Part shown: in pieces, positions 19,803 to 51,948 of the stretch | How the letters are laid out: each line of letters begins with the position of its first letter | Numbering within the stretch: the stretch's first letter is position 1 | NCBI RefSeq assembly: GCF_036013915.1 | Contig: NZ_CP107901.1 | Span: forward strand, 62,001 to 126,000 | DNA length: 64,000 nt | DNA from: Streptomyces sp. NBC_00464 | Lineage (GTDB): Bacteria; Actinomycetota; Actinomycetes; Streptomycetales; Streptomycetaceae | Direction: 5' to 3' | Position numbers and translations under genes: made by a program | Notes under the pieces: generated by a model | Databases searched by the model: none | Told to the model about the DNA's origin: nothing | The model's input: only the letters and a program-made list of their open reading frames with translations

Positions 19803-20588
19803 TCACTTCGTCCGGGCAGGAACCGTCGGAGCGTCCAGCACGGGGTCGCCGGAGCTGATGGCCTCGTACAGGCGCTGCATACGCGGGGTCGGCTCGATGC
19901 CCAGGGCGTCCCTCAGCATGCGGCTCAGCCCGTGGTGGACGGCGAGCGCCCGGGTCCGCTCGCCGGACCGGTGCAGCGCGAGCATGTACTGGGCGTGGAT
20001 GTTCTCGTGCGTGGGGTGCAGTACGGCCAGAGCACCCAGCTCGTCGCGGAGTTCACGGTGCCGGCCGAGCCGCAGGTCCGCCTCGATGCGGCGTTCCAGC
20101 ACGCATTTGCGGGTCTCTTCCAGCTCGACGAGATGGGTGGTGCTGAGCGGACCTGTCTGTACGTCCACGAGCGCGGGTCCGCGCCACAGGGCGAGGGCTC
20201 CGGAGAACTGCTCGGAGGCCTCCTCGAAGTCGCCCTTCGTCGCGGCCTCCTGGCCGCGCCGGGTCAGGGACTCGAAGCGGAAGCGGTCGAACGCGTGGAG
20301 GGGGATCTTCAGCTGGTAGCCGTGATTCCGGGTGACCAGGGACTGGGTCCGGTCATTCGCCGGAGAGGTACCGCGCAGAGCCTGTCTTACTTGCAGTACG
20401 TAGGTCTGCAGTGTGGACATCGAACTTTTCGGGGGGCTGGAGTCCCAGAGCTCTTTTATGCATTCGCTGGCCCGGACCATCTGATTTGCGTTGAGCATCA
20501 GGAATGCGAGCAGCTGGCGTGGCTTCGGTGCGCCCGGCGCCAGGTTGACCCCGTTGCTGAACAGCGACAATGGCCCCAGTACGCCCAT
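19803..20588 (-). CDS. SARP-family transcriptional activator
   Basis: About 261 residues of the Streptomyces antibiotic regulatory protein type: an N-terminal OmpR-like winged helix (VLGPLSLFSNGVNLAPGAPKPRQLLAFLMLNANQMV, then ELWDSSPPKSSMSTLQTYVLQVR), followed by a bacterial transcriptional activation domain (about residues 100-245). SARPs bind heptameric direct repeats and switch on clusters. ATG 20588 is selected because GGAGAAGG lies eight bases upstream; ATGs at 20594, 20606 and 20639 are in frame. It marks the left edge of the cluster and is preceded by a strong terminator. Confidence 0.9.
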   Translation of the reverse strand: MGVLGPLSLFSNGVNLAPGAPKPRQLLAFLMLNANQMVRASECIKELWDSSPPKSSMSTLQTYVLQVRQALRGTSPANDRTQSLVTRNHGYQLKIPLHAFDRFRFESLTRRGQEAATKGDFEEASEQFSGALALWRGPALVDVQTGPLSTTHLVELEETRKCVLERRIEADLRLGRHRELRDELGALAVLHPTHENIHAQYMLALHRSGERTRALAVHHGLSRMLRDALGIEPTPRMQRLYEAISSGDPVLDAPTVPARTK

Positions 20589-20709
20589 TTCCATTGCCTT
20601 CTCCATGTTTTCGAAGACGTCTGTTCCATTGGGGTACAACGGTATGCGTAAGGTTTCGGGCCGGTCAATTTTATTGCAATTAATTATCGAGGTGATAAGC
20701 GTTGCTTTT

Positions 20710-20751
20710 CATGCTGCGGGCCCCCGCCGTGAGGCGGGGGCCCGCAGCATG
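20710..20751. terminator. 19-bp-stem hairpin after metF
   Basis: Arms 20710-20728 and 20733-20751 are perfectly complementary around the loop GTGA. It lies 48 bases past the metF stop on the - strand and would end the long seven-gene transcript before the SARP gene. Confidence 0.8.
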
Positions 20752-20799
20752 TGGGGTATATGGATGATCAGCAGTGGTGGTGGATGGGCCTACGGGGAA

Positions 20800-21741
20800 T
20801 CAGCTGACACGCAGGCTTCTCGAACCCTGTACGGCGCGATGGATGTCGAGCGCCGCGGTGGACCGGTTGAGGGTGATGTAGTGCAGCCCGGGAGCGCCCT
20901 CGTCGAGGAGCCGGCCGGCCATGGCGGTGGCGTGGTCGACCCCGATCCGGTAGGCGGCCGAAGGCTGGTCACGCGCGGCCTCCAGACGGTGGGCGAGGTC
21001 TTCGGGGAAGGTGGCGTTGCTCAGCTCCGCGAACCGGCGGATCTGCCGCACATCGGTGGCGGGCATGATCTCCGGAATGATCGGGGTGTCGCAGCCGGCG
21101 CCCGCGATCCGGTCACGCAGCCGCAGATAGTGCTCGACGTCGAAGAACATCTGGGTGATGGCGTAGTCCGCCCCCGCCCGGCACTTGTCCACGAAGTGCC
21201 GGACGTCGCTCTCCCAGTCGGGGGAGCGGGGGTGCCGCTCGGGGAAGGCGGCGACCCCGACACTGAAGTCGCCCATCTCCTTGACCAGCGAGACCAGTTC
21301 ATGGGCGTGCCGGAAGCCCCGCGGATGGGGGACCCAGGCGGTGGCCGGGTCGCCGGGCGGATCACCCCGCAGGACGAGGACGTCCCGGACGCCGGCGTCC
21401 GCGTACTGCCCGATCATGTTGCGCAGTTCGGCGACCGAGTGGCCTACGGCGGTGAGGTGGGCGACCGGTCGCAGGGTCGTGTGCGCCGCGATGCGCCCGA
21501 CGGCGGCGATCGTACGGTCGCGGGAGGACCCGCCGGCTCCGTACGTCACCGACACGAAGGTCGGGCTGACGGCCTCGACCCGGCGGACGGCGTCCCACAG
21601 CGTGCGCTCGCCCGCCTCGGTCTTCGGGGGGAAGAACTCGAAGGAGTACGAGCGCTCGCCGCGGGCGAGGATGTCGTTCAGGCCGTCGTCCGGCCGTGCC
21701 GGCCGCACGGTGGGCGCTGCCTTCGGGGCCGGCGTGCTCAC
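20800..21741 (-). CDS. metF: 5,10-Methylenetetrahydrofolate reductase
   Basis: A 313-residue FAD enzyme that reduces methylene-THF to methyl-THF, the methyl donor for methionine synthesis. The MTHFR barrel motifs are visible: [18 protein letters not shown] (residues 32-49), [27 protein letters not shown], then [20 protein letters not shown] and [15 protein letters not shown]. Start ATG 21741 overlaps the previous stop as GTGA/ATGA, indicating translational coupling. Being last in a run with metK and an adenosine-kinase-like gene, it is likely a cluster-dedicated extra copy feeding S-adenosylmethionine to the methyltransferases. Confidence 0.93.
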
Positions 21742-22724
21742 GCGGACACACCCGTCAGGCGCGGTTCGATCTCACGGGCCGCCTCCGGGCCGTACGTGGT
21801 CCCGATCCGGTGCAGGAGATCGGGTACGGAGAGCTTGTACTCCTGGGTGCCCACCGATTCGAGCACCGTGGTGGCCAGCGCGCAGCCGAGCTGGGCGGCA
21901 CGTTCGTAGGACCAGTCCCAGGCCGTGCCCGCCAGGAAACCGGCACGGAAGGCGTCGCCGACGCCCGTGGGGTCGACCGGATCCGTGGTGGGGACGGCGG
22001 GGATCCGCACCACCGGGCGGCCCGCACGGGCGATGACGACGCCGTCCGGTCCCAGGGTGGTGATCCAGGTGCCGACCCGCTCCAGGACACCCTCCTTGGA
22101 CCAGCCGCTCTGCTTCTGGAGCAGGGCGGCCTCGTAGGCGTTGGTGAACAGGAAACGCGCCCCGTCCACGAGCCGACGGGTCTCCTGCCCGTCCAGACGG
22201 GCGAGCTGCTGGGAGGGGTCGGCCGCGAAGTCGATCCCCAGCCGGCGGCACTCGTCGGTGTGATGGCGCATCGCCTCCGGGTCGTTGGGCGCGACGACCA
22301 CCAGATCGAGACCACCGACACGGCGGGCCGTCGCCGCCAGGGTGATCTCCTTGGCCTCGGCCATCGCGCCCGCGTAGAAGGTGGCGATCTGGTTCTGGTC
22401 GGCGTCCGTCGTGCACACGAAGCGCGCGGTGTGCAGGGACTCGCTCACATGGACCAGTTCGGTGTCCACGCCGTTGTCGTGCAGCCAGGCGCGGTAGTCG
22501 GCGAAATCACCGCCGACCGATCCCGCCAGCACCGGACCGAGGCCGAGCCGGCCCAGTCCCACGGCGATGTTCGCGGCGACCCCGCCCCGGCGGATCTCCA
22601 GCGAGTCGGCCAGGAAGGACAGCGAGACCTTGTCGAGCTGCTCGGCGATCAGCTGGTCGGTGAACCGTCCGGGGAAGACCATCAGATGGTCGGTGGCGAT
22701 GGAACCGGTCACGGCGATGCGCAC
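21738..22724 (-). CDS. PfkB-family kinase, adenosine-kinase-like
   Basis: A 328-residue ribokinase-fold sugar/nucleoside kinase. It opens [20 protein letters not shown], has the [17 protein letters not shown] substrate-binding loop (residues 45-61) and the PfkB signature with catalytic base [16 protein letters not shown] (about 253-268). Sequence and context (between metK and metF) suggest adenosine kinase, which would phosphorylate the adenosine released by S-adenosylhomocysteine hydrolysis and so pull methylation forward. Overlaps metF by four bases. A different sugar kinase is the alternative. Confidence 0.82.
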
Positions 22725-22777
22725 GGCGTAATCTCCTTGGGCCTTGCGGTTCAGTGGGGAGCGGGACGAGCAGGCGG

Positions 22778-23995
22778 TCAGCCGGGGATCAGGCCCGCGG
22801 CCTCGCGCAGGGCCTGGGCGCGGTCGGTGCGCTCCCAGGTGAAGCCGGGGAGTTCGCGGCCGAAGTGGCCGTAGGCAGCGGTCTGGGCGTAGATCGGGCG
22901 GAGCAGGTCGAGGTCGCGGATGATCGCGGCCGGGCGGAGGTCGAAGACCTCACCGATCGCGTGCTCGATCCTCTCCGTGCCGATCGTGGCGGTACCGAAG
23001 GTCTCGACGAACAGACCGACGGGCTCCGCCTTGCCGATCGCGTACGCCACCTGGACCTCGCAGCGGGCGGCCAGCCCGGCCGCGACGACGTTCTTCGCGA
23101 CCCACCGCATCGCGTACGCGGCGGAACGGTCGACCTTGGAGGGGTCCTTGCCGGAGAAGGCGCCGCCGCCGTGCCGGGCCATGCCGCCGTACGTATCAAT
23201 GATGATCTTGCGACCGGTGAGGCCGGCGTCACCCATCGGGCCGCCGGTCTCGAAGCGGCCGGTCGGGTTCACCAGGAGCCGGTAGCCCTCGGTGTCCAGC
23301 TTGATGCCGTCCTCGGAGAGCCGGGCCAGGACGTGCTCGACGACGAACTCCCGGATGTCGGGGGTCAGGAGCGAGTCCAGGTCGATGTCGGCCGCGTGCT
23401 GGGTGGAGACGACGACCGTGTCCAGACGGACCGGCCGCGCGCCGTCGTACTCGATGGTGACCTGGGTCTTGCCGTCGGGGCGCAGGTAGGGCACGACGCC
23501 GTCCTTGCGGACGTCGGTCAGCCGGCGCGCCAGCCGGTGGGCGAGATGGATCGGCAGCGGCATCAGCTCGGGCGTCTCGTCGCAGGCGTAACCGAACATG
23601 AGGCCCTGGTCGCCCGCGCCCTGCTGGTCGAGCTCATCGCCTTCGCCCCCGACCCGCTTCTCGTACGCGGTGTCGACGCCCTGCGCGATGTCCGGGGACT
23701 GGGCGCCGATGGACACCGAGACGCCGCAGGAAGCACCGTCGAAACCCTTGCTGGAGGAGTCGTAGCCGATCTCCAGGACCTTCTGCCGGACCAGGGCGGC
23801 GATGTCGGCGTACGCGGTGGTGGTGACCTCGCCGGCCACATGCACCTGGCCGGTGGTGACCAGGCATTCGACCGCCACGCGGGAGGCCGGGTCCTGGGTG
23901 AGCAGCGCGTCGAGGATCGTGTCGCTGATCTGGTCGGCGATCTTGTCGGGGTGACCTTCGGTCACGGATTCCGAGGTGAACAGACGGGAGGACAA
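22778..23995 (-). CDS. metK: S-adenosylmethionine synthetase
   Basis: About 405 residues from TTG 23995, chosen because AGGAG stands five bases upstream and the encoded [22 protein letters not shown] is the family N-terminus. Signatures [12 protein letters not shown] (ATP loop) and [20 protein letters not shown] (phosphate-binding P-loop-like motif) are intact. It joins ATP and methionine to form SAM. A cluster-borne copy, in addition to the presumed housekeeping one, is common where a product is methylated. Confidence 0.95.
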
Positions 23996-24066: not shown

Positions 24067-25533
24067 TCATGGCAGCCGTCCGCCCGGCCGCCGCAGCGCC
24101 CGGTCGACCAGCGGACCGGCCGCCCCGGTGTAGCCGGCCGGGTCCAGCAGGACCGCCAGCTCCCCGGCGTCGAGGTGCCGGGCGATCTCGGGGAGCGCGG
24201 CAAGTACCTGGGCCAGCGGCCGGCCGGTGCGCCGGGCGGTCGTGGACGCCTGCGACAGCACGTCCCTGGCCGGGCCCCGGCCCAGGTGCGGCGCCAGTAC
24301 CGCGGCGACGCGTTCGGACACCACCTGGCTCCGGGTCATGCCGAGGTTGGCGCGCATGCGTTCCGGCCCGACGACGAGTCCTTCGGCGAGCTCGACGGCC
24401 GTGTGGGCCGCCCCTCCGGCCAGCCGCAGACACTCGCGCAGCAGCTGCCATTCGGCGTGCCAGGCGCCCGCCGACCGTTCGTCCTCCGCGAGCATGCACC
24501 CGGCCAGTCCGGCGGACAGCGCGGGGACCTGGAGGGCGGCGCTGCGGATCATCGTGGCGAGGACCGGGTTGCTCTTGTGCGGCATGGCCGAGGAACCGCC
24601 GCGGCCCTCGACGGCCGGTTCGCTCACCTCGCCGACCTCCGTACGGCACAGCGACTGCACATCGACGGCGATCTTGCCGAGCGCACCCGTGGTGAAGGCG
24701 AGCACCGCGGCCAGATCGGCGATCGGTGTACGCAGGGAATGCCACGGCACCCGCTGCGGGGCCAGCCCCGTCTCCGCCGCGAAGGCACTGTTGAGGGCGT
24801 CGGGGTACGTGCCGTCGTCGGTCGTGGCAGGTGCACGGTCCATCGCGCCGGGATGTGTGCCGTCGTCAGTGGCGGCTCCCGCGTCGATCGCCGCGTACTC
24901 CAGATAGCCGGCCAGGGTGCCCGCCGCACCGCCGAGCGATACGGGAAGCCCCGTCTCCAGGACGCGGGCCACCCGGTCGGCCGCGTCCAGCACCAGATCG
25001 CGCCAGCCGGCGGCCTTGAGCCCGAAGGTGGTCGGTACGGCGTGCAGCGCCAGGGTCCGGCCGGCCATGGGGGTGTCGCGGTGCTCGGCGGCCAGGGCGC
25101 GCAGCGCCTCGGCCGTGCGCCGCAGATCGGCCAGGACCAGGCGCAGCACCCGGGCGGACACCAGCATCGCGCCGGTGTCGAGGACGTCCTGGCTGGTGGA
25201 GCCGCGGTGCACGTACTCGGCGGCGGCCGGGTCCTTCCGCGCCACCAGCAGGGCCAGCGCACGCACCAGCCCCACAACGGGATTCGCCGTCTCGCGGGCG
25301 GCCAGTGCCAGCGCCCGCACATCGAACAGATCGGCGCGGGCGGCTTCGGTGATGATGCGCGCCGCACCCCGTGGCACGGTGCCGAGCGCCGCCTGCGCGC
25401 GGGCCAGAGCCGCCTCGGCGTCCAGCATGGCCTGCAGCCAGGCCCGGTCGTCCACCGCCTCCTCGGCGGGGGTCCCGGCGCGCACCGGCGAGAGCAGACC
25501 GGCGTCGGGGCCGGGGCCCGGGGCCGCCGTCAT
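24067..25533 (-). CDS. creD: CreD-like nitrosuccinate lyase (fumarase/aspartase superfamily)
   Basis: A 488-residue member of the superfamily of argininosuccinate, adenylosuccinate and carboxymuconate enzymes. Conserved boxes are [18 protein letters not shown] (residues 105-123) and the signature [14 protein letters not shown] (about 312-325). In cremeomycin biosynthesis the homologue CreD eliminates nitrous acid from nitrosuccinate, leaving fumarate. The assignment here rests on the four-base overlap with a CreE-type monooxygenase. A 16-residue tandem repeat ([11 protein letters not shown].. then [11 protein letters not shown]..) lies around residues 219-250 and looks like a recent duplication. 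A plain adenylosuccinate-lyase paralogue is the alternative. Confidence 0.82.
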
Positions 25534-27536
25534 GCCATCACTTCGGTGAAGTCGCTGTCCGGCGCATCCGGCGCGGGCGCGGAGGCCGGGGCGGGGTCCA
25601 GGCTCAGCACCGTCCGTGCCAGGGCGTCCGAGTCGCCCAGCGTCACCGAGTTGACGCCCGGCCGGATTCCGGCCGCGGTCACCCAGTGGACGGCCTCGGT
25701 GGGGACGCCGTACGCGAACCGGCGCGGATGGGCGCGGCCTTCCGCGTCCACCAGACGGTACGGACGTTCGGTGACCGCCAGGCCGCCGGTCTCGTAACTC
25801 GTGCCGCAGGTGCCGTCGATGCGGTAGGCGCGGGCCTGTCCGGAGGCCAGCAGGTGGGTCAGCAGCGGGTCGGCGGTGCGTCGTATGTCCGGTTCGGGCA
25901 GCCGGGCCTCGACCAGTACGGAGGTACGCACCGGCTCCCCGCCCACCCGGTCCGAGGTGGCCTCGAAGAACGCGGCCCCGTCCTCCTCGGCGATGCGCAC
26001 GCTCATTCCCGGCCCGAGCACCTCCAGGACCCCCGCCCGCAGCAGCGCGATCATCTCCTCGATGCGCGAGGCGGGCGGGCCGATCGACAGGAAGGCGTTG
26101 AGCGGCGTGTACCAGCCCTGCAGATCGTCCCGGTAGGAGTTGCCCTCCAGACGGCCGTGGTCGACCGCGAGCCGTATCTCGTTGCGCAGGTCGCGCAGGA
26201 CGTCCAGGGCGGCTTTCACGGGTCCGCTCACGTTGCCCGCACGGGCGTCGTGCACGTCCTTCGCCAGATACCCGAGCAGCCAGTCCCGGAAGTCGGCCGG
26301 GCCGGCGAAGACCCGGGCGCCGTAGGGGCGCGAGATCTTCTCCCAGTCCCAGCGCTCGCCGGGGGCGATGGCGTACTCGTCGAGCAGACGCTGCTCGGCC
26401 GCGCCCGCGGGGGCGGCCAGATAGCGGCCGGTGAACTCCTCGCTCCTCGTCTGCCCGTCACGGGCTGTCAGCACCGTGCCGTAGTAGACGCTCTCCACCT
26501 CTTTGGCGATCAACGGCCACAGGTCGCTGCCGAAGTGCAGACGCTCACCGTCCAGGGCGCGCCGGTGCAGCACGGCGACCGCCTCGGGGGTGAGGAGTGC
26601 GGGCAGATGGCGCCCGGTCGCACCCTTCTGGTTCTCGCCCCGCGCGTGGTACGGAATCCCGCGCCGTGACCCCGCGTACAGCCGCGGCTCACGGCCCGAC
26701 GGCCGGTAGACCAGGCCGTCGCCGACCCGTTCGAAGCGGCCGCCGCGCCCGAGGGTGAGCAGTGCCATGTGATCGAAGAAGTTCAGCCCGAGCCCGCGCA
26801 GCAGCACGCCCTGGCCCGGCCGGACGGCGGACAGGTCCACATCCGCGGGGTTGGCCGGCAGGACATGGAGCAGTCCGTGGGCCCGCGACTCCCCGGCGAG
26901 GCGCTCCTCGTCGGGCGACGTGGCGGCGGGCACATGCCCCTGGGCGAGCACCACCGCGTCCAGACCGGTGATCCGGGTGCCGTCCGCGAGCGTGAGGACC
27001 TGGGGACCGCTGCCCGCTTCTGCTGCCGGGCCGGCCGGGGCGTCGTCCAGGGCGACGGCGCGGGACCGGTGCTCCACGACGGTGACGTGGGCGGGCGCCC
27101 GGGAGACCGTCGTGGCGAAGACCTCCTCCAGGTACCGGCCGTACAGCGCCCGGCTGGGATACGAGTCGGGGCCCAGAGCGGCCGCCTCGGCACGAAAGCG
27201 GCCGCCGGGGTCGGCCGCGGTCGTCGCCGGATTCCCGGTGAGGCAGCGCGACTTGGCCCACTCGTACAGGCTCGGCCCGTCCTCGATGGGGCCGTTCATC
27301 ACCACGCTGCCGTCGGTGTACACGGTGACCTGCGAGGCGACGGTGTTCATCAGCAGATGTGGTGACTGGCCGGTCCGCCAGACCTGGCCGGGACCGGGGC
27401 GGGCGACGTCCACGACATGGACCGTCACCGCCGGGTGGGAGGCGGACTTCCGCTCGTTGGCACAGATTCTCTCCAGCACGGACAGACCGCGGGGCCCTGC
27501 CCCGACGATGCAGACCGTAAGGTCCCCGCTGCTCAT
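25530..27536 (-). CDS. creE: CreE-like flavin monooxygenase (aspartate to nitrosuccinate)
   Basis: About 668 residues from ATG 27536. An N-terminal dinucleotide fold (VCIVGAGPRGLSVLERI) and a second one (TGLDAVVLAQGHVPA) define the FAD/NAD(P)-binding family to which CreE belongs. CreE oxidises the amine of L-aspartate in three steps to nitrosuccinate; the adjacent lyase then frees nitrite. Family members are about this length. Gene order (ligase, methyltransferase, this gene, lyase) with overlapping stop and start supports the role. It would be cytoplasmic; no signal peptide. Confidence 0.82.
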   Translation of the reverse strand: MSSGDLTVCIVGAGPRGLSVLERICANERKSASHPAVTVHVVDVARPGPGQVWRTGQSPHLLMNTVASQVTVYTDGSVVMNGPIEDGPSLYEWAKSRCLTGNPATTAADPGGRFRAEAAALGPDSYPSRALYGRYLEEVFATTVSRAPAHVTVVEHRSRAVALDDAPAGPAAEAGSGPQVLTLADGTRITGLDAVVLAQGHVPAATSPDEERLAGESRAHGLLHVLPANPADVDLSAVRPGQGVLLRGLGLNFFDHMALLTLGRGGRFERVGDGLVYRPSGREPRLYAGSRRGIPYHARGENQKGATGRHLPALLTPEAVAVLHRRALDGERLHFGSDLWPLIAKEVESVYYGTVLTARDGQTRSEEFTGRYLAAPAGAAEQRLLDEYAIAPGERWDWEKISRPYGARVFAGPADFRDWLLGYLAKDVHDARAGNVSGPVKAALDVLRDLRNEIRLAVDHGRLEGNSYRDDLQGWYTPLNAFLSIGPPASRIEEMIALLRAGVLEVLGPGMSVRIAEEDGAAFFEATSDRVGGEPVRTSVLVEARLPEPDIRRTADPLLTHLLASGQARAYRIDGTCGTSYETGGLAVTERPYRLVDAEGRAHPRRFAYGVPTEAVHWVTAAGIRPGVNSVTLGDSDALARTVLSLDPAPASAPAPDAPDSDFTEVMA

Positions 27537-34885: not shown

Positions 34886-34974
34886 GCCGGCTCCAGGATG
34901 CGAGGCCCGACACGGCGGGCGGGGAGTACGGGCAGCGGAGCCCGGGTGCCGGTGACCGGCACCGTGTGAACAGA

Positions 34975-43206: not shown

Positions 43207-43246
43207 CCCGGGTGACGCGGCCGGTCAGCCGTTCCCGTCACCCGGG
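43207..43246. terminator. Bidirectional hairpin at convergent gene ends
   Basis: An 11-bp perfect stem, CCCGGGTGACG at 43207-43217 and CGTCACCCGGG at 43236-43246, covering the stop codon of the Ada-like gene (43238) and lying after the exporter gene. Confidence 0.7.
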
Positions 43247-44143
43247 AAGGGACGTCCCCGACAACTCCTGGCGCACCCGCTCGCACAGGCAGATCTCCAG
43301 CACATCGGCGGGCAGCAGCGCCCGGCCGGGCGCCGGCGGTTCGCCGCGCTCGACCGCGGCGCGCACCCGGGCGGCGAACCCGGCGTCACCCTCCGCCAGC
43401 CGGGCCGACGGGAACAGCCGGGCCAGCACCCGGTGCGCCGGATCCCCGTCGACGGCGGGCACCACCGCGCACACCCCTTTGTCCGCCGACGCGACGAGCA
43501 CGGGGCCCAGCGAGGAGGTGGCACAGGCGTACCGGATCAGGACCCCCCGGCCGCCCGAGCGGAACTCCTGCGGCGTCATGCCGAGAATCCTCGAGGACGC
43601 CGCGTAGAAGTGACCGTTGGAGTTGAACCCCGAGCTGTAGATGGCGTCCGACACGGTCTGCGCACACGTCAGTTCGCGGCGGACCCGGCGGGCGCGCACC
43701 ACCGACACATACGCGTGCGGCGTCACTCCGGTGAACGCCTTGAACATGCGGTGGAAGTGGAAGCGGCTGTAACCGGCCGCGTGCGCCAGCTCCTGAAGGT
43801 TCAGCGGGACCACCGACTCGTCCATCAGCCGGCATGCCCGCGCGACCGCCAGCGCGTGCAGCCGGCTCAGGCCCGGCTCGTCGGGGCGGCAGCGGCGGCA
43901 CGAACGGTAGCCCCGGGCCCGCGCCTCCTCCGCCGTCGGAAGGAACATGACGTTCTCGCGCCGCGCGGTCCGCACCACGCACGAGGGCCTGCTGTAGACC
44001 CCGGTGGTGCGCACCACGTAGTAGAACTTGCCGTCCGCGGCCCGGTCGTGCTCCCGCACCGCCCGCCAGCGGTCCTCGTCGCTCGTGTACGCCCCGGTGA
44101 CGTCACGTGTGTACGCCACGTCGCCTTCCCTCGTCACTCTCAT
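43238..44143 (-). CDS. Ada-like regulator lacking the methyl-acceptor cysteine and MGMT active site
   Basis: About 301 residues. Domain order is Ada zinc-binding (residues 20-92), AraC-type helix-turn-helix (100-190, with LQELAHAAGYSRFHFHRMFKAFTGVTPHAYV), then the N-terminal half of an alkyltransferase (LGPVLVASADKGVCAVVP). In E. coli Ada the sequence FCRPSC holds Cys38, the methyl acceptor and zinc ligand; here it is YSRPSC, with Ser51 in that place, while Cys55 and the CRRC pair remain. The protein ends before the PCHR motif. It therefore cannot repair DNA in the known way and may have become a pathway regulator. Overlaps the ligase gene by about 40 bases. ATG 44143 or GTG 44119 start. Confidence 0.82.
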   Translation of the reverse strand: MRVTREGDVAYTRDVTGAYTSDEDRWRAVREHDRAADGKFYYVVRTTGVYSRPSCVVRTARRENVMFLPTAEEARARGYRSCRRCRPDEPGLSRLHALAVARACRLMDESVVPLNLQELAHAAGYSRFHFHRMFKAFTGVTPHAYVSVVRARRVRRELTCAQTVSDAIYSSGFNSNGHFYAASSRILGMTPQEFRSGGRGVLIRYACATSSLGPVLVASADKGVCAVVPAVDGDPAHRVLARLFPSARLAEGDAGFAARVRAAVERGEPPAPGRALLPADVLEICLCERVRQELSGTSLPG

Positions 44144-45651: not shown

Positions 45652-45658
45652 CGGGCTT

Positions 45659-46768
45659 CTACTTCTCGACGCAGAACTCGCCGACCGGCCAGCCGACGTG
45701 CCGCTTGTCGGTGGCGACATGGCCGAGGACCTTGTCGCCCTGCTTCAGCTCGGTCACGTTCAGCACGCTCGCGCCCGGACCGAGGATCCGCACGTGCCAG
45801 TCGTCCTGGACGATGAGATTGACCTCGACGCCCTCCGGCGAATGGGCCTTGATGCTCAGCAGCGGCCTGGACTCCAGCTTGATGCGGCCCACCACGATGC
45901 GGCGGGTGCGGCCGTCGGCACCGACCGCGAGGACCGCGCTGCCGGCCTTGAGCTCGCTGAGGTAGTTGGTGCGGTTGTCCTGGCCGAAGACATAGCTGTG
46001 CAGCGCGCCCGCGTTGATACGGAACGGGCGGGTCGGCATGTACGGCAGCGGGTGGGTCTCGCTCACGCACAGGATGAACCCGTGCGCGTACGAGCCGACG
46101 AGCATGCCCTCGTCCTTCTCGAAGTGGGTGCAGGTGTCGATGCACACCCGGTCACCGAGCCCGAGGTGCTCGATCGAGTCGATGGTCAGCGTGGACAGCG
46201 ACAGGTCGGGGGTCTTCACCCGCAACATCTCCACCAGCGCGAAGACATCGTTGGCGTCGCGGGGCGCCAGCAGCACACCCTCCGAGCCCTTCTCCAGTAC
46301 GTCGACGATGACCTGGGCCTCTTCGAGGTCGTCGGCCCGGCAGATCAGCTGACCCGGCGAACTGTCCGCGGCCGCGATCACGATCTCCAGCGGGATCTTC
46401 GTCGGGTCCTTGAACTCGACCACCGTGTACGGCAGCGCGATCGCCGTCTCGCAGGCCAGCGTCAGCGTCGCGTCGTCGACCACGTTGACCAGGCCCGCGG
46501 TGTCCTTCTCGCCGTCACGGTGGCGGGCCCGCGCCGCACCCAGCTCCGCGGCGTCGGCGATCTCGTTCAGCACGATCAGGTCGTCGAGACCCTGGTCGGC
46601 AGGGCGCTCGGCGCCGGCCAGCACCCGCTTGACCGTGTTCGGCAGCGTGGCGAGAGTCGCCACATCACTGTCGACGATGGCGTCGACCCGGGCGTGGACA
46701 GCCGCGTCGATGACCGCCTCGCGGTGCTCGACGGGGACGGGACGGATGTCGATCCAGGCAAATTTCAC
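45659..46768 (-). CDS. griH: GriH-type 3-amino-4-hydroxybenzoate synthase (DHQ synthase II family)
   Basis: About 369 residues from GTG 46768, which overlaps the preceding stop as GTGA. The family is archaeal-type 3-dehydroquinate synthase II; visible blocks are KFAWIDIRPVPVEHREAV (N-terminus), TVVEFKDPTKIPLEIVIA, KGSEGVLLAPRDANDV, DRVCIDTCTHFEKDEGMLVGSYAHGF and PFRINAGALHSYVF. In grixazone biosynthesis GriH turns the C7 product of GriI into 3-amino-4-hydroxybenzoate (3,4-AHBA). Paired with a GriI homologue, this gives a confident role: supplier of the aromatic core. Confidence 0.92.
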   Translation of the reverse strand: MKFAWIDIRPVPVEHREAVIDAAVHARVDAIVDSDVATLATLPNTVKRVLAGAERPADQGLDDLIVLNEIADAAELGAARARHRDGEKDTAGLVNVVDDATLTLACETAIALPYTVVEFKDPTKIPLEIVIAAADSSPGQLICRADDLEEAQVIVDVLEKGSEGVLLAPRDANDVFALVEMLRVKTPDLSLSTLTIDSIEHLGLGDRVCIDTCTHFEKDEGMLVGSYAHGFILCVSETHPLPYMPTRPFRINAGALHSYVFGQDNRTNYLSELKAGSAVLAVGADGRTRRIVVGRIKLESRPLLSIKAHSPEGVEVNLIVQDDWHVRILGPGASVLNVTELKQGDKVLGHVATDKRHVGWPVGEFCVEK

Positions 46769-47595
46769 AGCACACCTGCCATGTGTGAGGTTGGCGCCGG
46801 CTCGGTCGCGAGCACACGGCCATGGACGATTGCGGCCAGATCCCGGACCGCTTGCTTGGGGGAAGAGCTGGCGAAGACGCGCCGCCCGACTGCCAGACCG
46901 CTGCACCCGGCGGCCAGCGCCGACGATGCGAACCGGTGCAGACTCCGATCGGCGTCGACACCGGCGACACCACTGCCACCGGCCACGACGACCGGCAGCG
47001 GGGAGTTGGCGACGACCTCCGCCATGCGTTCAACAGGCGAGGCGAGGACCGTCTTGACGAGGTCGACGCCGAGGTCGGCGGCGATGTTGACGACATGCGA
47101 CACGAGCTCCGGCCGGGTGGGGTCGACCACCCGGGGCCCGCGCGGGTAGATCATCGCCAGCAGCGGCATACCCCACCGCTCGCACGCCGAGGAGACGGCA
47201 CCGAGATCGGCGAGCTGCGCCGCCTCGGTGTCGGACCCGATGTTGACGTGCACGCTGACGGCGTCCGCGCCGAGCCGTACGGCCTCCTCGACATCGCAGA
47301 CCAGGACCTTGGCGTCGACGTCGGGGGCATGGACGGTGCTCGCGCTCAGATGCACCACGAGAGCGGTGCGGGTGAGCAGCCCCGGCTGGATCATCCGTGC
47401 CCGGCCCTTGTGGACGATGACGGCGTCCGCGCCGCCCTCGCTGATGTCCCGGACCAGCCCGGGGAAGTCCGCGCCGCTGGAAACGGGGCCATCGGACACG
47501 GAGTGGTCGAGGGGAACGAACAGATAGCGCCCGTCGCCCCGTCTGGACAGTCGTGCCAGGCGCAGTGCCTTGCCGCTCAGCGGCATGCTTGACAT
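46765..47595 (-). CDS. griI: GriI-type aldolase making the C7 precursor of 3,4-AHBA
   Basis: 276 residues of the DhnA/class I aldolase (fructose-bisphosphate aldolase) type. Key segments: YLFVPLDHSVSDGPV (residues 24-38), ADAVIVHKGRARMI, DAVSVHVNIGSDTEA, DLVKTVLASPVERM with the Schiff-base lysine, and VVAGGSG. GriI condenses aspartate semialdehyde with dihydroxyacetone phosphate, giving 2-amino-4,5-dihydroxy-6-one-heptanoate-7-phosphate. Translationally coupled to the GriH-type gene. Divergent from the intracellular BBE-like oxidase. Confidence 0.92.
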   Translation of the reverse strand: MSSMPLSGKALRLARLSRRGDGRYLFVPLDHSVSDGPVSSGADFPGLVRDISEGGADAVIVHKGRARMIQPGLLTRTALVVHLSASTVHAPDVDAKVLVCDVEEAVRLGADAVSVHVNIGSDTEAAQLADLGAVSSACERWGMPLLAMIYPRGPRVVDPTRPELVSHVVNIAADLGVDLVKTVLASPVERMAEVVANSPLPVVVAGGSGVAGVDADRSLHRFASSALAAGCSGLAVGRRVFASSSPKQAVRDLAAIVHGRVLATEPAPTSHMAGVL

Positions 47596-47807: not shown

Positions 47808-49454
47808 ATGCCCACTGACGTACACAAGAGCGCCCTGCCGGCGCTTCAGGTCACCGCGGTCACCGCGGCTGACGCCCGCTATCCGGACCTGGTCCGGGGA
47901 TGGAACCAGCGCTTCGTCTGCGCACCGGAGACGGTCTTCCTGCCCACCACGACGGACGAGGTCGCCGAGGCGGTGCGGCGGGCGGTGCGCGAGAACAAGC
48001 GGCTGTCCGTACGCAGCGGGGGGCACTGCTGGGAGGACTTCGTCCACCACCCCGACGTACGGATCGTCCTCGACATGTCCGCGCTGAAGGCGGTGTACTT
48101 CGACGCCGAGCACGGTGCGTTCGCCGTGGAGGCCGGCGCCCTGCTGCTGGACGTGTACGAGCGGCTCTACCGGGGCTGGGGCGTGACCGTGCCCGGCGGC
48201 ATGTGCTTCCAGGTAGGGGCGGGGGGTCATGTCAGCGGTGGCGGCTGGGGCCTCCTGTGCCGCCGGTACGGCCTGGTGGTCGACCACCTCTACGCCGTCG
48301 AGGTGGTCGTGGTGGACGAGGACGGAACCGTCCGCACCGTGGTGGCGACCCGGGAGGACGACGACCCGGACCGTGAGCTGTGGTGGGCGCACACCGGTGG
48401 CGGCGGGGGGAACTTCGGGGTGGTGACCCGGTACTGGTTCCGCTCACCGGACACCTGGACCCCCACCGGCGGGGAGCCGGATCCCGCCCTGCTGCTGCCG
48501 CGCCCGCCCGCCGAGGTCTGGGTCAGCGCCGTGTCGTGGCAGTGGGACGACCTCGGGCGCGAGGACTTCGTCCGGCTGGTGGCCAACTACAGCGCCTGGC
48601 AGGTGGCGCACCGGGCGCCCGGTGACCCGTACAGCGATGTGTGCAGCCTGCTGTCGCTCAACCACCGGTCCAACGGGGCCATCGGCCTGATCACCCAGGT
48701 GGCCGCCAACGACCCCGGCTCGCTGCGGCTGCTGGAGGACTTTCTCGGGGCCGTCACCGCGGGGGTCCGCGCACCGGCGGGCCCCGTCACCACGCGGATG
48801 GGCGAACACGGGCCGATGCCCGAACTCGCCCGCCCGCGCCGGCTGCCCTGGATGCAGGCCACCCGCTACCTGGGCACGGCCAACCCCACCACCAACGACC
48901 CCACGCAGAAGGGCGCCTTCAAGTCCTCCTACATGCGCCGCGACTTCCCCGCCCGCCACATCGACGCCCTCTACCGCCACCTGGTGCGCGAGGACGGCGG
49001 CAACCCGACGGCCTCGGTCATGCTCAGCTCCTTCGGCGGCGCGGTCGCCGCGGCCGGTGAGGACGCCACCGCCTTCCCCCACCGCGACGCGGCCTTCAAA
49101 CTGGCCTGGATGATCTGGTGGGACGACCCGGCCGACGAGGCGGGCTGCCTGTCCTGGCTCAGGGAGTTCTACGAGGACGTGTACGCCGACACCGGTGGCG
49201 TCCCGGTACCGGGCCCCGTCACCGACGGGGCGTTCGTCAACTACCCCGACCGCGATCTGAGCGACCCGGCCCGCAACCGCTCCTCGTCCCCCTGGCACGA
49301 GCTGTACTACAAGGCCAACTATCCCCGCCTGCAGCAGGTGAAGCAGCGCTGGGACCCTCGCGACGTCTTCCGCCACCGCCAGTCCGTCCGGCTCCCGTCG
49401 CCGGACGGTGCCGCGGGCCACGAAGGCAACCGCACCGGCCCGCCCGGGGTTTGA
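47808..49454 (+). CDS. BBE-like FAD oxidase without signal peptide
   Basis: About 548 residues from ATG 47808. Strongly similar along its whole length to the exported copy at 36998: SVRSGGHCWEDF (FAD-histidine), GGMCFQVGAGGHVSGGGWGLLCRR (possible FAD-cysteine), WWAHTGGGGGNFGVVTRYWFRSP and the C-terminal FVNYPDRDL..WHELYYKANY. The twin-arginine signal is absent, so this copy stays in the cytoplasm. It could perform a dehydrogenation or phenol coupling. Followed after 34 bases by an aromatic hydroxylase gene, likely in one operon. Confidence 0.9.
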   Translation: MPTDVHKSALPALQVTAVTAADARYPDLVRGWNQRFVCAPETVFLPTTTDEVAEAVRRAVRENKRLSVRSGGHCWEDFVHHPDVRIVLDMSALKAVYFDAEHGAFAVEAGALLLDVYERLYRGWGVTVPGGMCFQVGAGGHVSGGGWGLLCRRYGLVVDHLYAVEVVVVDEDGTVRTVVATREDDDPDRELWWAHTGGGGGNFGVVTRYWFRSPDTWTPTGGEPDPALLLPRPPAEVWVSAVSWQWDDLGREDFVRLVANYSAWQVAHRAPGDPYSDVCSLLSLNHRSNGAIGLITQVAANDPGSLRLLEDFLGAVTAGVRAPAGPVTTRMGEHGPMPELARPRRLPWMQATRYLGTANPTTNDPTQKGAFKSSYMRRDFPARHIDALYRHLVREDGGNPTASVMLSSFGGAVAAAGEDATAFPHRDAAFKLAWMIWWDDPADEAGCLSWLREFYEDVYADTGGVPVPGPVTDGAFVNYPDRDLSDPARNRSSSPWHELYYKANYPRLQQVKQRWDPRDVFRHRQSVRLPSPDGAAGHEGNRTGPPGV

Positions 49455-49488
49455 CCTCCCGACGAACCCACCGACGTACGGAGCCCAG

Positions 49489-51021
49489 ATGCCCGCCAGC
49501 CCCCGGGAAACGGCCCCGGCCACCACCCCCGACACGGAGGTCGCCGTGGTCGGCGGCGGCCCGGTCGGGATGCTGATGGCCAGAGAACTGGCCCTGCTGG
49601 GCATCGACGCGACGGTGTACGAGAAGCTGGCCGCCCCGTCCCCCGAGTCCAAGGCGGGCACCCTGCACGCGCGCACCGCGCAGCTGCTGCACCGGCGCGG
49701 CATCCTGGACGCGGTCCAGCCGGGGCGCCCGGCCACGCGCGACGCCACCAGGGGCACCCGTTTCCACTTCGGCGCCCTCTTCGACCTGGATCTGTCCCGG
49801 GTGGTGGAGGAGGGCCCCGTCATCGTCGGCAGCCCCCAGGCGTGGGCCCAGGAGGTGTTCGCCGGGCACGCCCGGAAGCTGGGTGCCCGGATCGAGCGGG
49901 GCAGCGAACTCGTCGGCCTCCAGGAGAGGGACGACCATGTCCGGCTCACCCTGCGGGACACGGACGGCAGCACCCGTACCAGCACGGCCCGCTGGGTCGT
50001 CGGAGCCGACGGCGCCCGCAGCGCGGTCCGCAAGCTGAGCGGTATCCCGTTCACCGGCACGTCCGCGACGGTCTCCGCGCTCATGGGCGAGGTCCGTCTG
50101 CTCGATCCGTGGTCCGCGCCCTCGGGCTGGCAGCGCACCCCGCGCGGATGGACTCTGCTGTGGGTCTCCCCCTCAGGCCAGAGCCGGGTGTGCACATACG
50201 ACTTCCGCGGCCCGCACCCCGCCCGGAACTCCCCGGTCACTCTGGAGGAACTGCGCGGTGAGGTCGCGCGGATCGCCGGCCGCGACGTCCCCATGGAGTC
50301 ACCGAGCTGGCTCACCCGCTTCAGCGACGCCGCGCTGCAGGCCGAGACGTACCGCAAGGGCCGTGTCCTGCTCGTGGGAGACGCGGCGCACGTCCACTTC
50401 CCCGCGGGCGGACAGGGCGTCAACCTCGGTCTGCAGGACGCCTTCAACCTGGGCTGGAAGCTCGCCGCCCACCTGCGGTCAGGGGCGCCCGAAAGCCTGC
50501 TGGACACCTACCACACCGAGCGCCATCCGGTCGCGGCCGCGGTCCTGCACAACGTACGGGCCCAGGTCGCGCTGATGAACCCGGACCCCCGCACCGACGC
50601 GCTGCGCGAACTCTTCGCCGACCTCATGCACTTCGACGAGGTCAACGACCATCTCAGCGGCATGATCACCGGTACCGCGCAGGTCTACGACATGGGAGCG
50701 GACCAGGCCGGCCCGCTGACCGGCCGCCTCGCCCCCGACGTGCGGCTGAAGACCGCCGAGGGCACCACCACCCTTGCCGCGCTGCTGCACACCGCACGCC
50801 CGGTGCTGCTCGACCTCGGCGACCGCGCCGACCTGCGCGAGGCGGCCGCACCCTGGGCCGACCGGGTGGACATCGTCACCGCCGTGGCCGACGAGCCCTT
50901 CGCCGCCACGGCTCTCCTGGTGCGCCCCGACGGCTGTACGGCGTGGAGCGCGGACGGCCGCACCCGGGAGGCGAAGAACCTGCGGGCGTCCCTGGCCCGC
51001 TGGTTCGGACCGGCCCGGTGA
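49489..51021 (+). CDS. Class A FAD-dependent aromatic hydroxylase (PgaE/RdmE-like)
   Basis: About 510 residues from ATG 49489. FAD fold VAVVGGGPVGMLMARELALLGIDATVYEK (residues about 17-45), DG motif VVGADGARSAVRKLSG, GD motif VLLVGDAAHVHFPAGGQGVNLGLQDAFNLGWKLAAHL, and a C-terminal thioredoxin-like domain (LHTARPVLLDLGD..). This subtype hydroxylates polycyclic or bicyclic phenols. Together with the hydroxylase at 30635 it gives two independent ring oxidations. Convergent with the LysR gene, 18 bases between stops. Confidence 0.88.
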   Translation: MPASPRETAPATTPDTEVAVVGGGPVGMLMARELALLGIDATVYEKLAAPSPESKAGTLHARTAQLLHRRGILDAVQPGRPATRDATRGTRFHFGALFDLDLSRVVEEGPVIVGSPQAWAQEVFAGHARKLGARIERGSELVGLQERDDHVRLTLRDTDGSTRTSTARWVVGADGARSAVRKLSGIPFTGTSATVSALMGEVRLLDPWSAPSGWQRTPRGWTLLWVSPSGQSRVCTYDFRGPHPARNSPVTLEELRGEVARIAGRDVPMESPSWLTRFSDAALQAETYRKGRVLLVGDAAHVHFPAGGQGVNLGLQDAFNLGWKLAAHLRSGAPESLLDTYHTERHPVAAAVLHNVRAQVALMNPDPRTDALRELFADLMHFDEVNDHLSGMITGTAQVYDMGADQAGPLTGRLAPDVRLKTAEGTTTLAALLHTARPVLLDLGDRADLREAAAPWADRVDIVTAVADEPFAATALLVRPDGCTAWSADGRTREAKNLRASLARWFGPAR

Positions 51022-51039
51022 CGGCACACCGGCCGGCCC

Positions 51040-51948
51040 TCAGCTCCCCGCGGCCGTGAGCGGGGCGTCCGGGACGCGGCCGTTGAAGGGGTAGCCGTGC
51101 AGCGCCTCCAGCAGCGCGTCCCGCACGCTCGCCGTGACGCGGAGGTCGATACCCGCCCGGACGCCCAGGGCCACCGGCACGGGCGGGGGCGGATCGGGCA
51201 GCGCGGCATGGGAACTGCGCTCCAGGCCCCACAACGCGTCACCGTTGGTGATCAGGCAGGCGAACCCCAGCCCCGCGCGGACAGCGGCGCGCAGCCCGAT
51301 GAACTCGGAGCCCTCGTAACCGATACGCCAGGGAGTAGCGGTGGCGCTGAGGGAGTCCATGACATGGCCCCGCATGTCGCAGGGCTCGGTGAACAGGGCC
51401 AGCGGGACCGGTTCCCCCCGGCCGTAGGGCGGCTTGCCGAACCACGCCAGCGAGAGCCGTCCCAGTTCGTGCGTCTCGTAACCGGCGCCCTGACGGCTGG
51501 CGTTGAGCAGCAGCGCGAGATCCAGCCGGCCGTCGGTGAGCCGGCCCGAAAGATTGTCGGTGAGCGCGGTGTGCACGTCGACGCGGATGTGCGGGGCTCG
51601 CCGGGCGAGGATCTCCAGGAACTCCGGCAGCGCGTCGGCGAGCTGCTCCGAGACCCCCACGGCGAGTTGGAGCCGGCCCCGGGGAGTGACGAACCGGGCG
51701 ACGGCCTCGTCGTTGAGCGCCACCATGCGCCGGGCATAGCCGAGCAGCTCCTCCCCGGCCCGGCTGAGCCGCAGCGAGCTGCCGGTGGAGGTGAACACCG
51801 GGCCCCGGATCAGTGCGCCGAGATGGCGGATGTGCTGGCTGACCGCGGGCTGGGTGATGTACAGAGCCTCGGCAGCCCGCCGGAAGCCTCCCAGATCCAC
51901 CACGGTGATCAAGGTCCGTAGGCGGCTGATGTGCAGGTTCTGATGCAT
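51040..51948 (-). CDS. LysR-family transcriptional regulator
   Basis: 302 residues from ATG 51948. The N-terminal winged helix LHISRLRTLITVVDLGGFRRAAEALYITQPAVSQHIRHLGALI (residues 5-47) and the following substrate-binding domain of two alpha/beta lobes (about 90-290) define the family. LysR proteins usually sense a pathway metabolite. Lying at the right edge of the cluster, convergent with the hydroxylase gene, it may regulate the cluster or the repair genes beyond. Confidence 0.9.
   Translation of the reverse strand: MHQNLHISRLRTLITVVDLGGFRRAAEALYITQPAVSQHIRHLGALIRGPVFTSTGSSLRLSRAGEELLGYARRMVALNDEAVARFVTPRGRLQLAVGVSEQLADALPEFLEILARRAPHIRVDVHTALTDNLSGRLTDGRLDLALLLNASRQGAGYETHELGRLSLAWFGKPPYGRGEPVPLALFTEPCDMRGHVMDSLSATATPWRIGYEGSEFIGLRAAVRAGLGFACLITNGDALWGLERSSHAALPDPPPPVPVALGVRAGIDLRVTASVRDALLEALHGYPFNGRVPDAPLTAAGS

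Follow-up and report, generated by a model that had tools for sequence, protein, structure and literature searches.

A Streptomyces plasmid carries a cluster that appears to serve nitrite-dependent aromatic chemistry together with genes for the repair of methylated DNA. Present in the window (the whole 64,000-nucleotide stretch analysed) are a 3,4-AHBA gene pair, an overlapping CreE/CreD-type pair, two ligases, two O-methyltransferases, two hydroxylases, an HpaB/HpaC pair, two BBE oxidases and genes for SAM supply, plus a repair suite: an ECF sigma factor, two MGMTs (MGMT1 and MGMT2), an Ada/AraC regulator, a 3-methyladenine glycosylase and a 2OG oxygenase. On balance we think it probable that the cluster makes an aromatic metabolite, derived from 3,4-AHBA and nitrite, that alkylates DNA with methyl or some other very small group, and that the repair set is dedicated to self-protection.

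A first-pass annotation had placed the cluster at 19803..51948. Every gene on its list was located (by ORF coordinates and Pfam or NCBIfam matches), but the range is too narrow, because repair genes sit at 17710-19726, 52052-53331 and 58845-59881. Absent from that list were the SAM module, two SARPs, the SDR, the cupin, two MFS exporters, the LysR regulator, the DNA-methylation repair suite and, though it lies within the range, the Ada/AraC regulator (43238..44119). Several gene starts were shifted to match their equivalents in the public record NZ_CP108675.1.

Precursor, nitrite and ligase genes

46765-47595, minus strand: GriI-type aldolase (NCBIfam PRK07226, 305 bits, cut-off 241)
45659-46768, minus strand: GriH-type 3,4-AHBA synthase, DHQS II (NCBIfam PRK02290.1-3, 513 bits, cut-off 375)
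24067-25533, minus strand: CreD-type nitrosuccinate lyase (NCBIfam NF052556, 772 bits, equivalog cut-off 650)
25530-27536 (ORF to 27638), minus strand: CreE-type L-aspartate N-hydroxylase / nitrosuccinate synthase (8cp2, 703 bits)
28653-30332 (ORF to 30371), minus strand: ANL ligase 1, candidate nitrite-activating diazotase/N-nitrosylase
44103-45566, minus strand: ANL ligase 2, aryl-acid activation presumed (Pfam AMP-binding, AMP-binding_C)

Both members of the GriH/GriI pair exceed their subfamily models and neither reaches the bagremycin/ferroverdin models (aldolase against BagB/FevI, 277 bits, under the cut-off of 500; synthase against BagC/FevH, 450 bits, under 750); by family the pair would make 3,4-AHBA. 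Over 473 aa the lyase shares 67% identity with CreD of S. cremeus (5xny), and over 642 aa the oxidase shares 58% with the solved aspartate N-hydroxylase 8cp2; the ORFs adjoin with a 4-base overlap, the likely CreE start at 27536 being set by equivalence with NZ_CP108675.1. Placement of the 24067 and 25530 proteins outside CreD and CreE had been named in advance as grounds for rejecting a diazo-type cluster: the two proteins group with CreD and CreE (NF052556, 5xny, 8cp2). The presence of a CreD-group lyase and an adjacent CreE-group hydroxylase predicts membership of the ANS nitrous-acid pathway, with nitrite from aspartate, and family membership argues strongly that the pair would convert aspartate to nitrous acid.

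Broadly, ligase 1 groups with AvaA6 and Tri17. It carries the motif residues Glu347 and Lys540 (numbering on the 572-aa ORF), matches 9bq0/8tf7 (Tri17, according to a review) at 259 bits and 8ztz at 298 bits, and is 45% identical to the ligase of a crx-like cluster in genome G131. In triacsin biosynthesis (Tri17, a promiscuous N-nitrosylase according to the review) and in the AvaA6/CmaA6 diazotases an ANL ligase uses nitrite ATP-dependently, as we propose for ligase 1, which by family would adenylate nitrite and then nitrosate or diazotise an amine. Family matches uphold the first-pass reading of 3,4-AHBA plus enzymatic nitrite, together with a ligase of broadly CreM/AvaA6/Tri17 type. The best NCBIfam model is that of the AvaA6 diazotase, but ligase 1 falls far under the curated cut-off (335 against 975 bits), and its assignment as an AvaA6 equivalog (aminoavenalumate diazotase) was rejected.

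Tailoring, SAM supply, transport and regulation

27604-28608, minus strand: OMT2, O-methyltransferase (Pfam Methyltransf_2 with dimerisation domain)
38786-39448, minus strand: catechol-type O-methyltransferase (Pfam Methyltransf_3, 242 bits)
30635-32293, plus strand: FMO1, class A flavin hydroxylase 1 (Pfam FAD_binding_3, Rng_hyd_C; NCBIfam PRK06126, 589 bits, cut-off 445)
49489-51021, plus strand: class A flavin hydroxylase 2 (Pfam)
39729-40229, plus strand: HpaC-type flavin reductase (Pfam Flavin_Reduct)
40293-41918, plus strand: HpaB-type phenol hydroxylase (Pfam HpaB_N/HpaB)
36998-38695, plus strand: BBE-like oxidase 1 (Pfam)
47808-49454, plus strand: BBE-like oxidase 2 (Pfam)
35020-35904, minus strand: SDR oxidoreductase (Pfam adh_short)
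35953-36603, minus strand: cupin (Pfam Cupin_2, 42 bits)
20800-21741, minus strand: methylenetetrahydrofolate reductase, SAM supply (Pfam MTHFR, 327 bits)
21738-22724, minus strand: PfkB-type carbohydrate/adenosine kinase, SAM supply presumed (Pfam PfkB, 156 bits)
22778-23995, minus strand: S-adenosylmethionine synthetase MetK (three MetK Pfam domains; start by equivalence with NZ_CP108675.1)
19803-20639, minus strand: SARP regulator 1 (Pfam BTAD, Trans_reg_C)
32479-33384, plus strand: SARP regulator 2 (Pfam BTAD)
33353-34888, minus strand: MFS exporter 1 (Pfam MFS_1, 136 bits)
41944-43170, plus strand: MFS exporter 2 (Pfam MFS_1; missing from most relatives)
51040-51963, minus strand: LysR regulator (Pfam)

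The best solved matches of BBE-like oxidase 1 in the PDB search are TamL, a putative hexose oxidase (2wdw), CrmK and AknOx, and the cupin has, as read by eye, the metal pattern HxH...E...H. Judged by family, HpaB/HpaC, the two flavin hydroxylases and the BBE oxidases would introduce oxygen and oxidise either the ring or a side chain, while the two methyltransferases would methylate the aromatic and MetK, MTHFR and the kinase would feed SAM, all in a presumed order and at presumed positions.

If the pathway were traceless, the diazo group would give way to a hydrogen or a hydroxyl, the outcome seen with avenalumic and p-coumaric acid, and a nitrogen-free aromatic would result. The AvaA6 model as best match of ligase 1 fits such a route, as does the SDR, which might act on a diazonium; yet the score lies far below the AvaA6 cut-off, a harmless phenolic acid would need no alkylation repair, and neither KS, CLF nor ACP occurs among the proteins scanned (18300 to 55246), where PKS and NRPS are likewise lacking, as the first-pass annotation had said. 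We regard this route as very unlikely.

The alkylation-repair suite

17710-18267, minus strand: MGMT2, second O6-methylguanine-DNA methyltransferase (Pfam PF01035, 97.6 bits, and PF02870)
18300-19142, minus strand: MGMT1, MGMT-type protein with C-terminal Ada zinc domain (Pfam PF01035, PF02805)
19139-19726, minus strand: ECF sigma factor, overlapping the MGMT1 start (Pfam Sigma70_r2/r4_2)
43238-44119, minus strand: AdaA, regulator with Ada zinc and AraC DNA-binding domains (Pfam, translation)
52052-52702, minus strand: 3-methyladenine glycosylase, Tag (Pfam Adenine_glyco, 213 bits; so annotated in NZ_CP108675.1)
52756-53331, minus strand: u52, conserved protein without assigned function (homologue search)
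58845-59144, minus strand: small Ada-like protein (translation; annotated Ada metal-binding in NZ_CP108675.1)
59141-59881, minus strand: 2OG-Fe(II) oxygenase (Pfam PF09859, 263 bits)

The translation of MGMT2, a gene also annotated in NZ_CP108675.1, has the PCHR motif, and that of MGMT1 has IPCHR and the four zinc-site cysteines; in 17 MGMT1 homologue rows (counting the window once and two genomes twice) the motif is PCHR in 15, PSHR in one and unalignable in one. Pfam describes PF09859 as 'catalysing oxidative methylation of damaged DNA', which we take to mean demethylation. Homologues of u52 are fused in some relatives to an Ada-like zinc segment; the small Ada-like protein, read by eye, has three cysteines and a glycine at the acceptor place.

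In AdaA the methyl-acceptor position (Cys38 of E. coli Ada) aligns with a serine. All 14 domain-retaining copies from clusters, drawn from 12 genomes and 2 plasmids, have this serine, whereas in the control set of best-scoring non-cluster AdaA copies checked, 27 of 27 have cysteine. A methyl-phosphotriester-sensing Ada/AraC activator would carry the acceptor cysteine, which AdaA lacks; we propose that AdaA would act without being methylated.

Conservation among relatives

The cluster has close counterparts in 11 further Streptomyces genomes and on two named plasmids (NZ_CP108675.1, NZ_CP107856.1), of which the former is near-identical (98.9% over 100% of 18300-42000) and carries annotations for the same genes. 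Two families can be told apart among the relatives, both with repair genes; family A has HpaB/HpaC, the BBE oxidases, the cupin and the SDR. CreD, CreE, ligase 1, OMT2 and FMO1 are found in all 11 other family A genomes, as is the family A marker HpaB (84-92%), which has no match at that level in the five family B genomes (5/5). The set is also kept in NZ_CP107856.1, and retention there and in 11/11 family A genomes argues that the genes do not co-occur by chance.

Where found, in 12 relatives' sets (NZ_CP108675.1 excluded), the ECF sigma factor is 68-89% identical. For 12 of the 18 other family A and B sets the fetched stretches include a 2OG oxygenase copy (52-81% identical); that of NZ_CP108675.1, annotated outside its fetched stretch, is additional. 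Tag occurs in just four of the 19 sets (window, NZ_CP108675.1, G001, G010), and the LysR regulator in the window and NZ_CP108675.1 only. MGMT1 and the ECF gene are missing from the fetched stretches of five (G005, G008 and G011 in family A; G012 and G014 in family B), which in some cases may reflect the ends of contigs or stretches: matching coordinates suggest that G005 is G062, where MGMT1 is on another contig.

Comparison with known systems

The 3,4-AHBA pair, CreE/CreD and probably a CreM-family ligase are shared with the cremeomycin cluster (cre) of S. cremeus, which also has a methyltransferase and a hydroxylase. Compared with cre as described, the window appears to add HpaB/HpaC, BBE oxidases, a cupin, an SDR, a second ligase and the alkylation-repair suite, a gene content that bears out the earlier impression of more oxidative steps than cremeomycin would seem to need. 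The label 'cremeomycin-like' may overstate the likeness, the relatives being two families of their own with repair genes.

Could the product nevertheless be a cremeomycin-type o-diazoquinone bearing additional hydroxy and methoxy substituents, where the repair genes serve a minor side reaction? Its opening enzymes and diazotase family would be identical in kind, and the extra HpaB, methyltransferases and hydroxylases would suit a polymethoxylated ring. Neither aryl diazoniums nor quinone diazides, however, would be expected to yield O6-alkylguanine or 3-methyladenine. The crx (crexazone) cluster shares 3,4-AHBA and CreD/E homologues with the window and has CreM/N homologues as well, and the products described in part of PMC11429834 are acetylated AHBA, a phenoxazinone and CRX2, the diazo product not being detected there. 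The cluster of G131 (crx-like by gene order only; CreE 54%, CreD 55%) has no repair genes within its fetched 32 kb. The suite is of a small-alkyl damage type and its sigma/MGMT part is common to SznF clusters; a plain diazoquinone, azo compound or hydrazide therefore would leave it unexplained. Of the first-pass prediction (o-diazoquinone, or a derived azo, hydrazide or deaminated aromatic) the AHBA/nitrite/ligase route is supported, but a diazoquinone product is not established, and we judge it unlikely.

Streptozotocin-type clusters supply the closer parallel for the repair genes: an ECF sigma factor, an MGMT with Ada zinc domain and a second MGMT lie near SznF in 7/7 genomes, with a PF09859-type oxygenase in four of the seven. 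The window has this whole self-protection block, its PF09859 oxygenase lying ~40 kb from the ECF-MGMT part. It differs in its predicted N-N chemistry (by a nitrite route) and aromatic scaffold; a homologue search found no SznF-like protein within the window, and a streptozotocin-type assignment was rejected for lack of this N-nitrosourea synthase.

A region of NZ_CP047019.1 (A7X85_RS43410-43525) was flagged for cre and szn similarities in section 9 of PMC12224297 (2025), which reports identities to cre of 63% (aldolase), 52% (DHQS II), 64% (CreE) and 68% (CreD) and links the MGMT, sigma and 2OG genes with those of streptozotocin clusters, listing no cre counterpart for these. The region is probably a family A member, judging from its locus-tag numbers: 14 steps separate DHQS II from CreE, resembling family A (at least 13 genes between) and not family B (~5). 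That section gives neither a product nor a claim of DNA methylation.

Association of repair genes with clusters

A survey of 392 Streptomyces genomes, among them that of the window, gives MGMT1 homologues (E<=1e-40) in 13: five with ligase 1 at >=67% and eight others. All five ligase 1 genomes have one, four in the same stretch and the fifth, the draft genome G062, on a different contig; the chance of 5/5 is 1.7e-8, and of 4/4 without the window 5.2e-7, assuming independent genomes, which they are not. Seven of the eight others have an SznF gene within ~12 kb on the fetched stretches (that of G378 matches PDB SznF over 471 residues at 1038 bits, and the remaining six share 71-88% identity with the G378 protein); G355 has no such cluster and no SznF within ~28 kb.

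Eighty CreE loci were kept for a second comparison. ECF and MGMT1 genes are present in 8 of 11 family A loci, the remaining three ending ~2 kb beyond CreE, and no MGMT, AdaA, Tag, u52 or 2OG oxygenase was found in the 64 loci that belong to neither family A nor family B, 47 of them >=20 kb long. The two tests are not independent, because four genomes are common to both.

These counts bear on whether the suite merely guards against collateral DNA methylation, arising from nitrous acid and cellular amines, and says nothing of the product. Metabolite nitrosation is indeed described, in a passage of PMC6813329, as a known bacterial source of alkylating agents; but 0/64 other CreE loci carry repair genes, and SznF clusters, whose N-nitroso group is not nitrite-derived according to the review, still carry the ECF-MGMT block. 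We hold this explanation to be distinctly unlikely.

The predicted product

From the presence of the repair suite we infer that the product would methylate DNA, damage that MGMT1, MGMT2, the glycosylase and the 2OG oxygenase would by family undo. Candidate warheads are a vinylogous nitrosamide, formed by an aminoquinone that carries an N-methyl-N-nitroso group, and two alternatives: an aryl methyltriazene or a methoxy-arenediazonium. In favour of a DNA-methylating product we count the CreD/CreE identity, the family and motifs of ligase 1, the repair genes that lie within the cluster and next to it, and the genome associations. Against it, neither methyltransferase is of a kind showing N-methylation, no methylamine-forming gene was seen, and Tag (4/19 sets), the missing MGMT1/ECF (5/19) and G355 also count; MGMTs can moreover act on non-methyl alkyl groups, which weighs against a methyl-specific reading. 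More tentatively, and with some doubt, the cluster may encode a new chemotype of natural DNA-methylating agent, with an ANS-nitrite aromatic warhead made by a CreM/Tri17-type ligase, protection by repair genes of streptozotocin type, and an Ada regulator whose change from cysteine to serine lets it work independently of methyl damage.

Streptozotocin is a clinical anticancer drug, and natural DNA-methylating agents are few. Repair genes of the same kind as those beside the streptozotocin genes suggest a hitherto unknown natural agent of this type, and a probable member of the cluster family is already in print without an assigned product, in the section of PMC12224297 cited above. A nitrite-route methylating agent on an aromatic scaffold would join diazo biosynthesis to methylation self-resistance, and the action of the product would have been predicted concretely ahead of its isolation. 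The ECF-MGMT block would be a usable marker for genome mining, since of the 13 MGMT1 genomes among 392 five have this kind of cluster and seven have SznF nearby, and the serine-for-cysteine Ada regulator offers a natural test of the accepted mechanism by which Ada is switched on.

Core enzymes of the cluster

All genes listed in the first-pass annotation are found in the window, including the pair predicted to make nitrite. The 24067 protein scores 772 bits on the curated nitrosuccinate lyase model (cut-off 650) and shares 67% identity with CreD of S. cremeus; the 25530 protein shares 58% with 8cp2, an aspartate N-hydroxylase of solved structure. These matches place them as CreD-type and CreE-type, respectively. 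The aldolase and DHQS II score above the broader NCBIfam subfamily cut-offs and below the bagremycin/ferroverdin ones; the cupin has only a weak match in the PDB.

For ligase 1 – the candidate nitrite-activating ANL ligase – the best model is the AvaA6 diazotase, with a score (335) far below cut-off (975). Among its matches in the PDB are 9bq0 and 8tf7, both assigned by a review to Tri17, for which adenylation of nitrite has been proposed. Motif inspection, rather than alignment to CreM, shows the Glu position for Mg binding and the C-terminal Lys to be in place. In the ligase 1 tree, sequences from the two families defined below (A and B) cluster together, separate from crx-like ligases; because CreM is absent from the tree, it supports no claim as to substrate. 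The best match to the 5xny CreD among the fetched loci is 73%, so the S. cremeus cremeomycin cluster is not one of them.

A ligase 1 homologue of 59% identity (P0066) is named as from a Chloroflexi metagenome bin, and in a crx-like cluster of another genome (L121 of G131) fragments of a BBE-type oxidase (45–54% identity) adjoin CreD/CreE. Three open reading frames were dropped: 33681-35009 (-) and 33758-34969 (+), since an MFS gene occupies the same gap, and 51947-53251 (+), which is antisense to the glycosylase and its neighbor.

Two families of related clusters

A scan for CreE gave 305 relatives, from which the best 80 were kept; the wider cluster, with ligase 1 of at least 65% identity, is common to 16 of these 80 loci. 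Families A and B were separated from the other 64 loci by ligase 1 identity, not by repair genes: identity is at least 65% in A and B versus at most 34% among the other loci with a usable ligase row. Family A (window-type clusters with HpaB/HpaC, BBE oxidases, cupin and SDR) comprises the window and G001–G011, HpaB being 84–92% identical in all 11 other genomes. Family B comprises G012–G016, none of the five having HpaB at the family A level (G014 carries two distant HpaB homologues elsewhere in its genome). A TGA was reported inside four HpaB matches; the tblastn alignments there contain no stop, or an end stop only (ten stretches checked, G009 excepted), and the four genes look intact.

Gene content was tabulated for 19 A/B sets plus one crx-like set; contig ends account for part of the gaps in this table. 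Members of family A differ in whether they carry the second MFS, LysR and 3-methyladenine glycosylase (Tag) genes, and some also in the class A flavin hydroxylase FMO2. In the fetched stretches of family B, GriI/GriH, CreE/CreD, ligase 1, the O-methyltransferase OMT2, the hydroxylase FMO1, MetK and the kinase occur in all five genomes, ligase 2 (45–46%), ECF and MGMT1 in three, the cupin in two and a BBE oxidase in one.

The replicon bearing the window (C3, 241,242 bases; the window is G000:C3:62001-126000) belongs to a Streptomyces genome, as judged from its relatives, and is probably a linear plasmid, because a 140-base inverted repeat (1-140 and 241,076-241,215; 93% identity) is common to both ends. 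The nearest public record found is NZ_CP108675.1, a linear plasmid of Streptomyces sp. NBC_01022, which is 98.9% identical over the whole of 18300-42000 and whose annotation is consistent with the gene models made for the window. The cluster also occurs, at lower identity and accompanied by metH, on another linear plasmid, NZ_CP107856.1, and one ligase 1 homologue, from Streptomyces sp. BI20, is named plasmid-encoded. The window also encodes a Prim-Pol (62969-63961). Between the conserved hypothetical and an LLM oxidoreductase, some 1.8 kb of the window (53478-55298) is unmatched in the otherwise near-identical NZ_CP108675.1 stretch.

A DNA repair suite

Components of the repair suite
ECF sigma factor: inside or beside the cluster
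MGMT1, methylguanine methyltransferase: IPCHR motif; Ada zinc domain at the C terminus, its four Cys all present
MGMT2, second methyltransferase: inside or beside the cluster
Ada/AraC regulator: inside or beside the cluster
3-methyladenine glycosylase (Tag): inside or beside the cluster
2OG oxygenase (PF09859): inside or beside the cluster
58845-59144: small Ada-like protein with three Cys
52756-53331 (u52): some relatives fused to a similar three-Cys segment

Judged by family, the suite would cover O6-methylguanine, methyl phosphotriesters (through the MGMT1 zinc domain), 3-methyladenine, for which Tag has a preference, and oxidative removal from damaged DNA. In the MGMT1 alignment (the window entered once, two genomes twice) PCHR is found in 15 of 17 rows and PSHR in one (G355), the last row being unalignable there.

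Four u52 relatives (P0200, P0134, P0146 and P0205) are fused to an Ada-like segment with three Cys, and one of the four comes from the family A strain LHD-70. By eye, Gly replaces the Ada acceptor Cys in the fused segments and in the 58845-59144 protein.

Association of repair genes with the cluster and with SznF

Repair genes beside a source of nitrite might reflect nitrous-acid stress. The 64 CreE loci outside families A and B (the remainder of the best 80 of 305 relatives; 47 are at least 20 kb) contain no match to MGMT, Ada/AraC, glycosylase, u52 or 2OG oxygenase in tblastn with window queries (1e-6; reach at most about 10 kb either side), and weak sigma matches occur in two. Nitrite production alone therefore does not bring repair genes, and nitrous-acid stress as their cause is not supported by these loci. 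ECF and MGMT1 are present in eight of 11 family A CreE loci, whereas the sequence of the remaining three stops some 2 kb beyond CreE; at the five family B loci the pair fell outside the first stretch, and after extension it is present in three of the five genomes.

Across 392 genomes of the genus, ligase 1 (at least 67%) occurs in five, the window's own included; 13 genomes have an MGMT1 homologue (E<=1e-40), among them all five ligase 1 holders. The probability of five out of five by chance is 1.7e-8 (5.2e-7 for four out of four without the window), on the assumption of independent genomes, which genomes are not. The two genes share one stretch in four of the five genomes and lie on two contigs in G062. 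This test overlaps with that of the CreE loci because four genomes are common to both under two handles, judging by matching coordinates (G062/G005, G195/G013, G317/G015, G302/G016).

In seven of the other eight MGMT1 genomes the fetched stretches contain SznF, the streptozotocin synthase: the G378 protein matches the PDB SznF over its whole length (1038 bits), and the six others are 71–88% identical to it. MGMT2 accompanies MGMT1 in all eight, and a 2OG oxygenase in four. PMC9040887 describes AlkB and AGT homologues as self-protection against streptozotocin. The eighth genome, G355, has an ECF–MGMT1–MGMT2 block (L137) with neither SznF nor the cluster within about 28 kb, and with PSHR replacing PCHR in MGMT1; it may stand for a methylator of a third type or be a relic.

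A regulator lacking the acceptor cysteine

In E. coli Ada, methylation of Cys38 lowers the charge of the zinc site and converts the protein into an activator (PMC4437013 and PMC10957082). In the cluster Ada/AraC regulator the acceptor Cys is Ser in all 12 genomes that keep the domain (eight of family A including the window, four of family B), and also in the copies on both named plasmids. Two close relatives (L098 of G001, L100 of G010) lack the whole Ada zinc domain, and the fetched stretches of G004 and G016 yielded no copy of the gene (G009 fell outside coverage). For control, 30 loci were fetched from a 199-genome search, taken as best-scoring rather than drawn at random: all 27 non-cluster copies have Cys, and all three cluster copies, already among the genomes above, have Ser. 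Near the cluster of G011 (L109) there is one standard Ada-type copy with Cys. Because Ser stands in the cluster copies where the controls have Cys, the regulator is, on sequence grounds, no standard methyl-phosphotriester sensor; we propose that it acts without methylation.

Proposed product and relation to previous work

Family membership of the encoded proteins shows functions that supply AHBA, nitrite and SAM, oxygenate, methylate, activate nitrite and repair DNA; we infer the order of steps, and the product would methylate DNA. The product interpretation of the first-pass annotation stands in part: AHBA supply, nitrite supply and (by family) nitrite activation are supported, but a plain cremeomycin congener, a diazoquinone, is retained as a rival and not accepted, because the repair suite speaks against it. 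For a DNA-methylating product, our guess at the warhead is an N-methyl-N-nitroso group on an aminoquinone, acting as a vinylogous nitrosamide: nitrosamides transfer methyl, and the many ring oxidations would fit such a structure. Neither methyltransferase shows signs of the N-methylation type. Alternatives would be a methyltriazene or a methoxy-arenediazonium, salts of the latter undergoing dealkylation.

Section 9 of PMC12224297 drew attention to a region of NZ_CP047019.1 where genes resembling those for cremeomycin and for streptozotocin occur; it calls the region a likely secondary metabolic pathway and concludes nothing further on product. Because the locus-tag spacing of that region roughly fits family A, the family is probably already on record; no named product for family A or B was found in the open-licence literature. 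As far as that literature shows, what is new here is the reading that the product would methylate DNA, together with the controls on 64 loci and 392 genomes and the replacement of Cys by Ser in the regulator.
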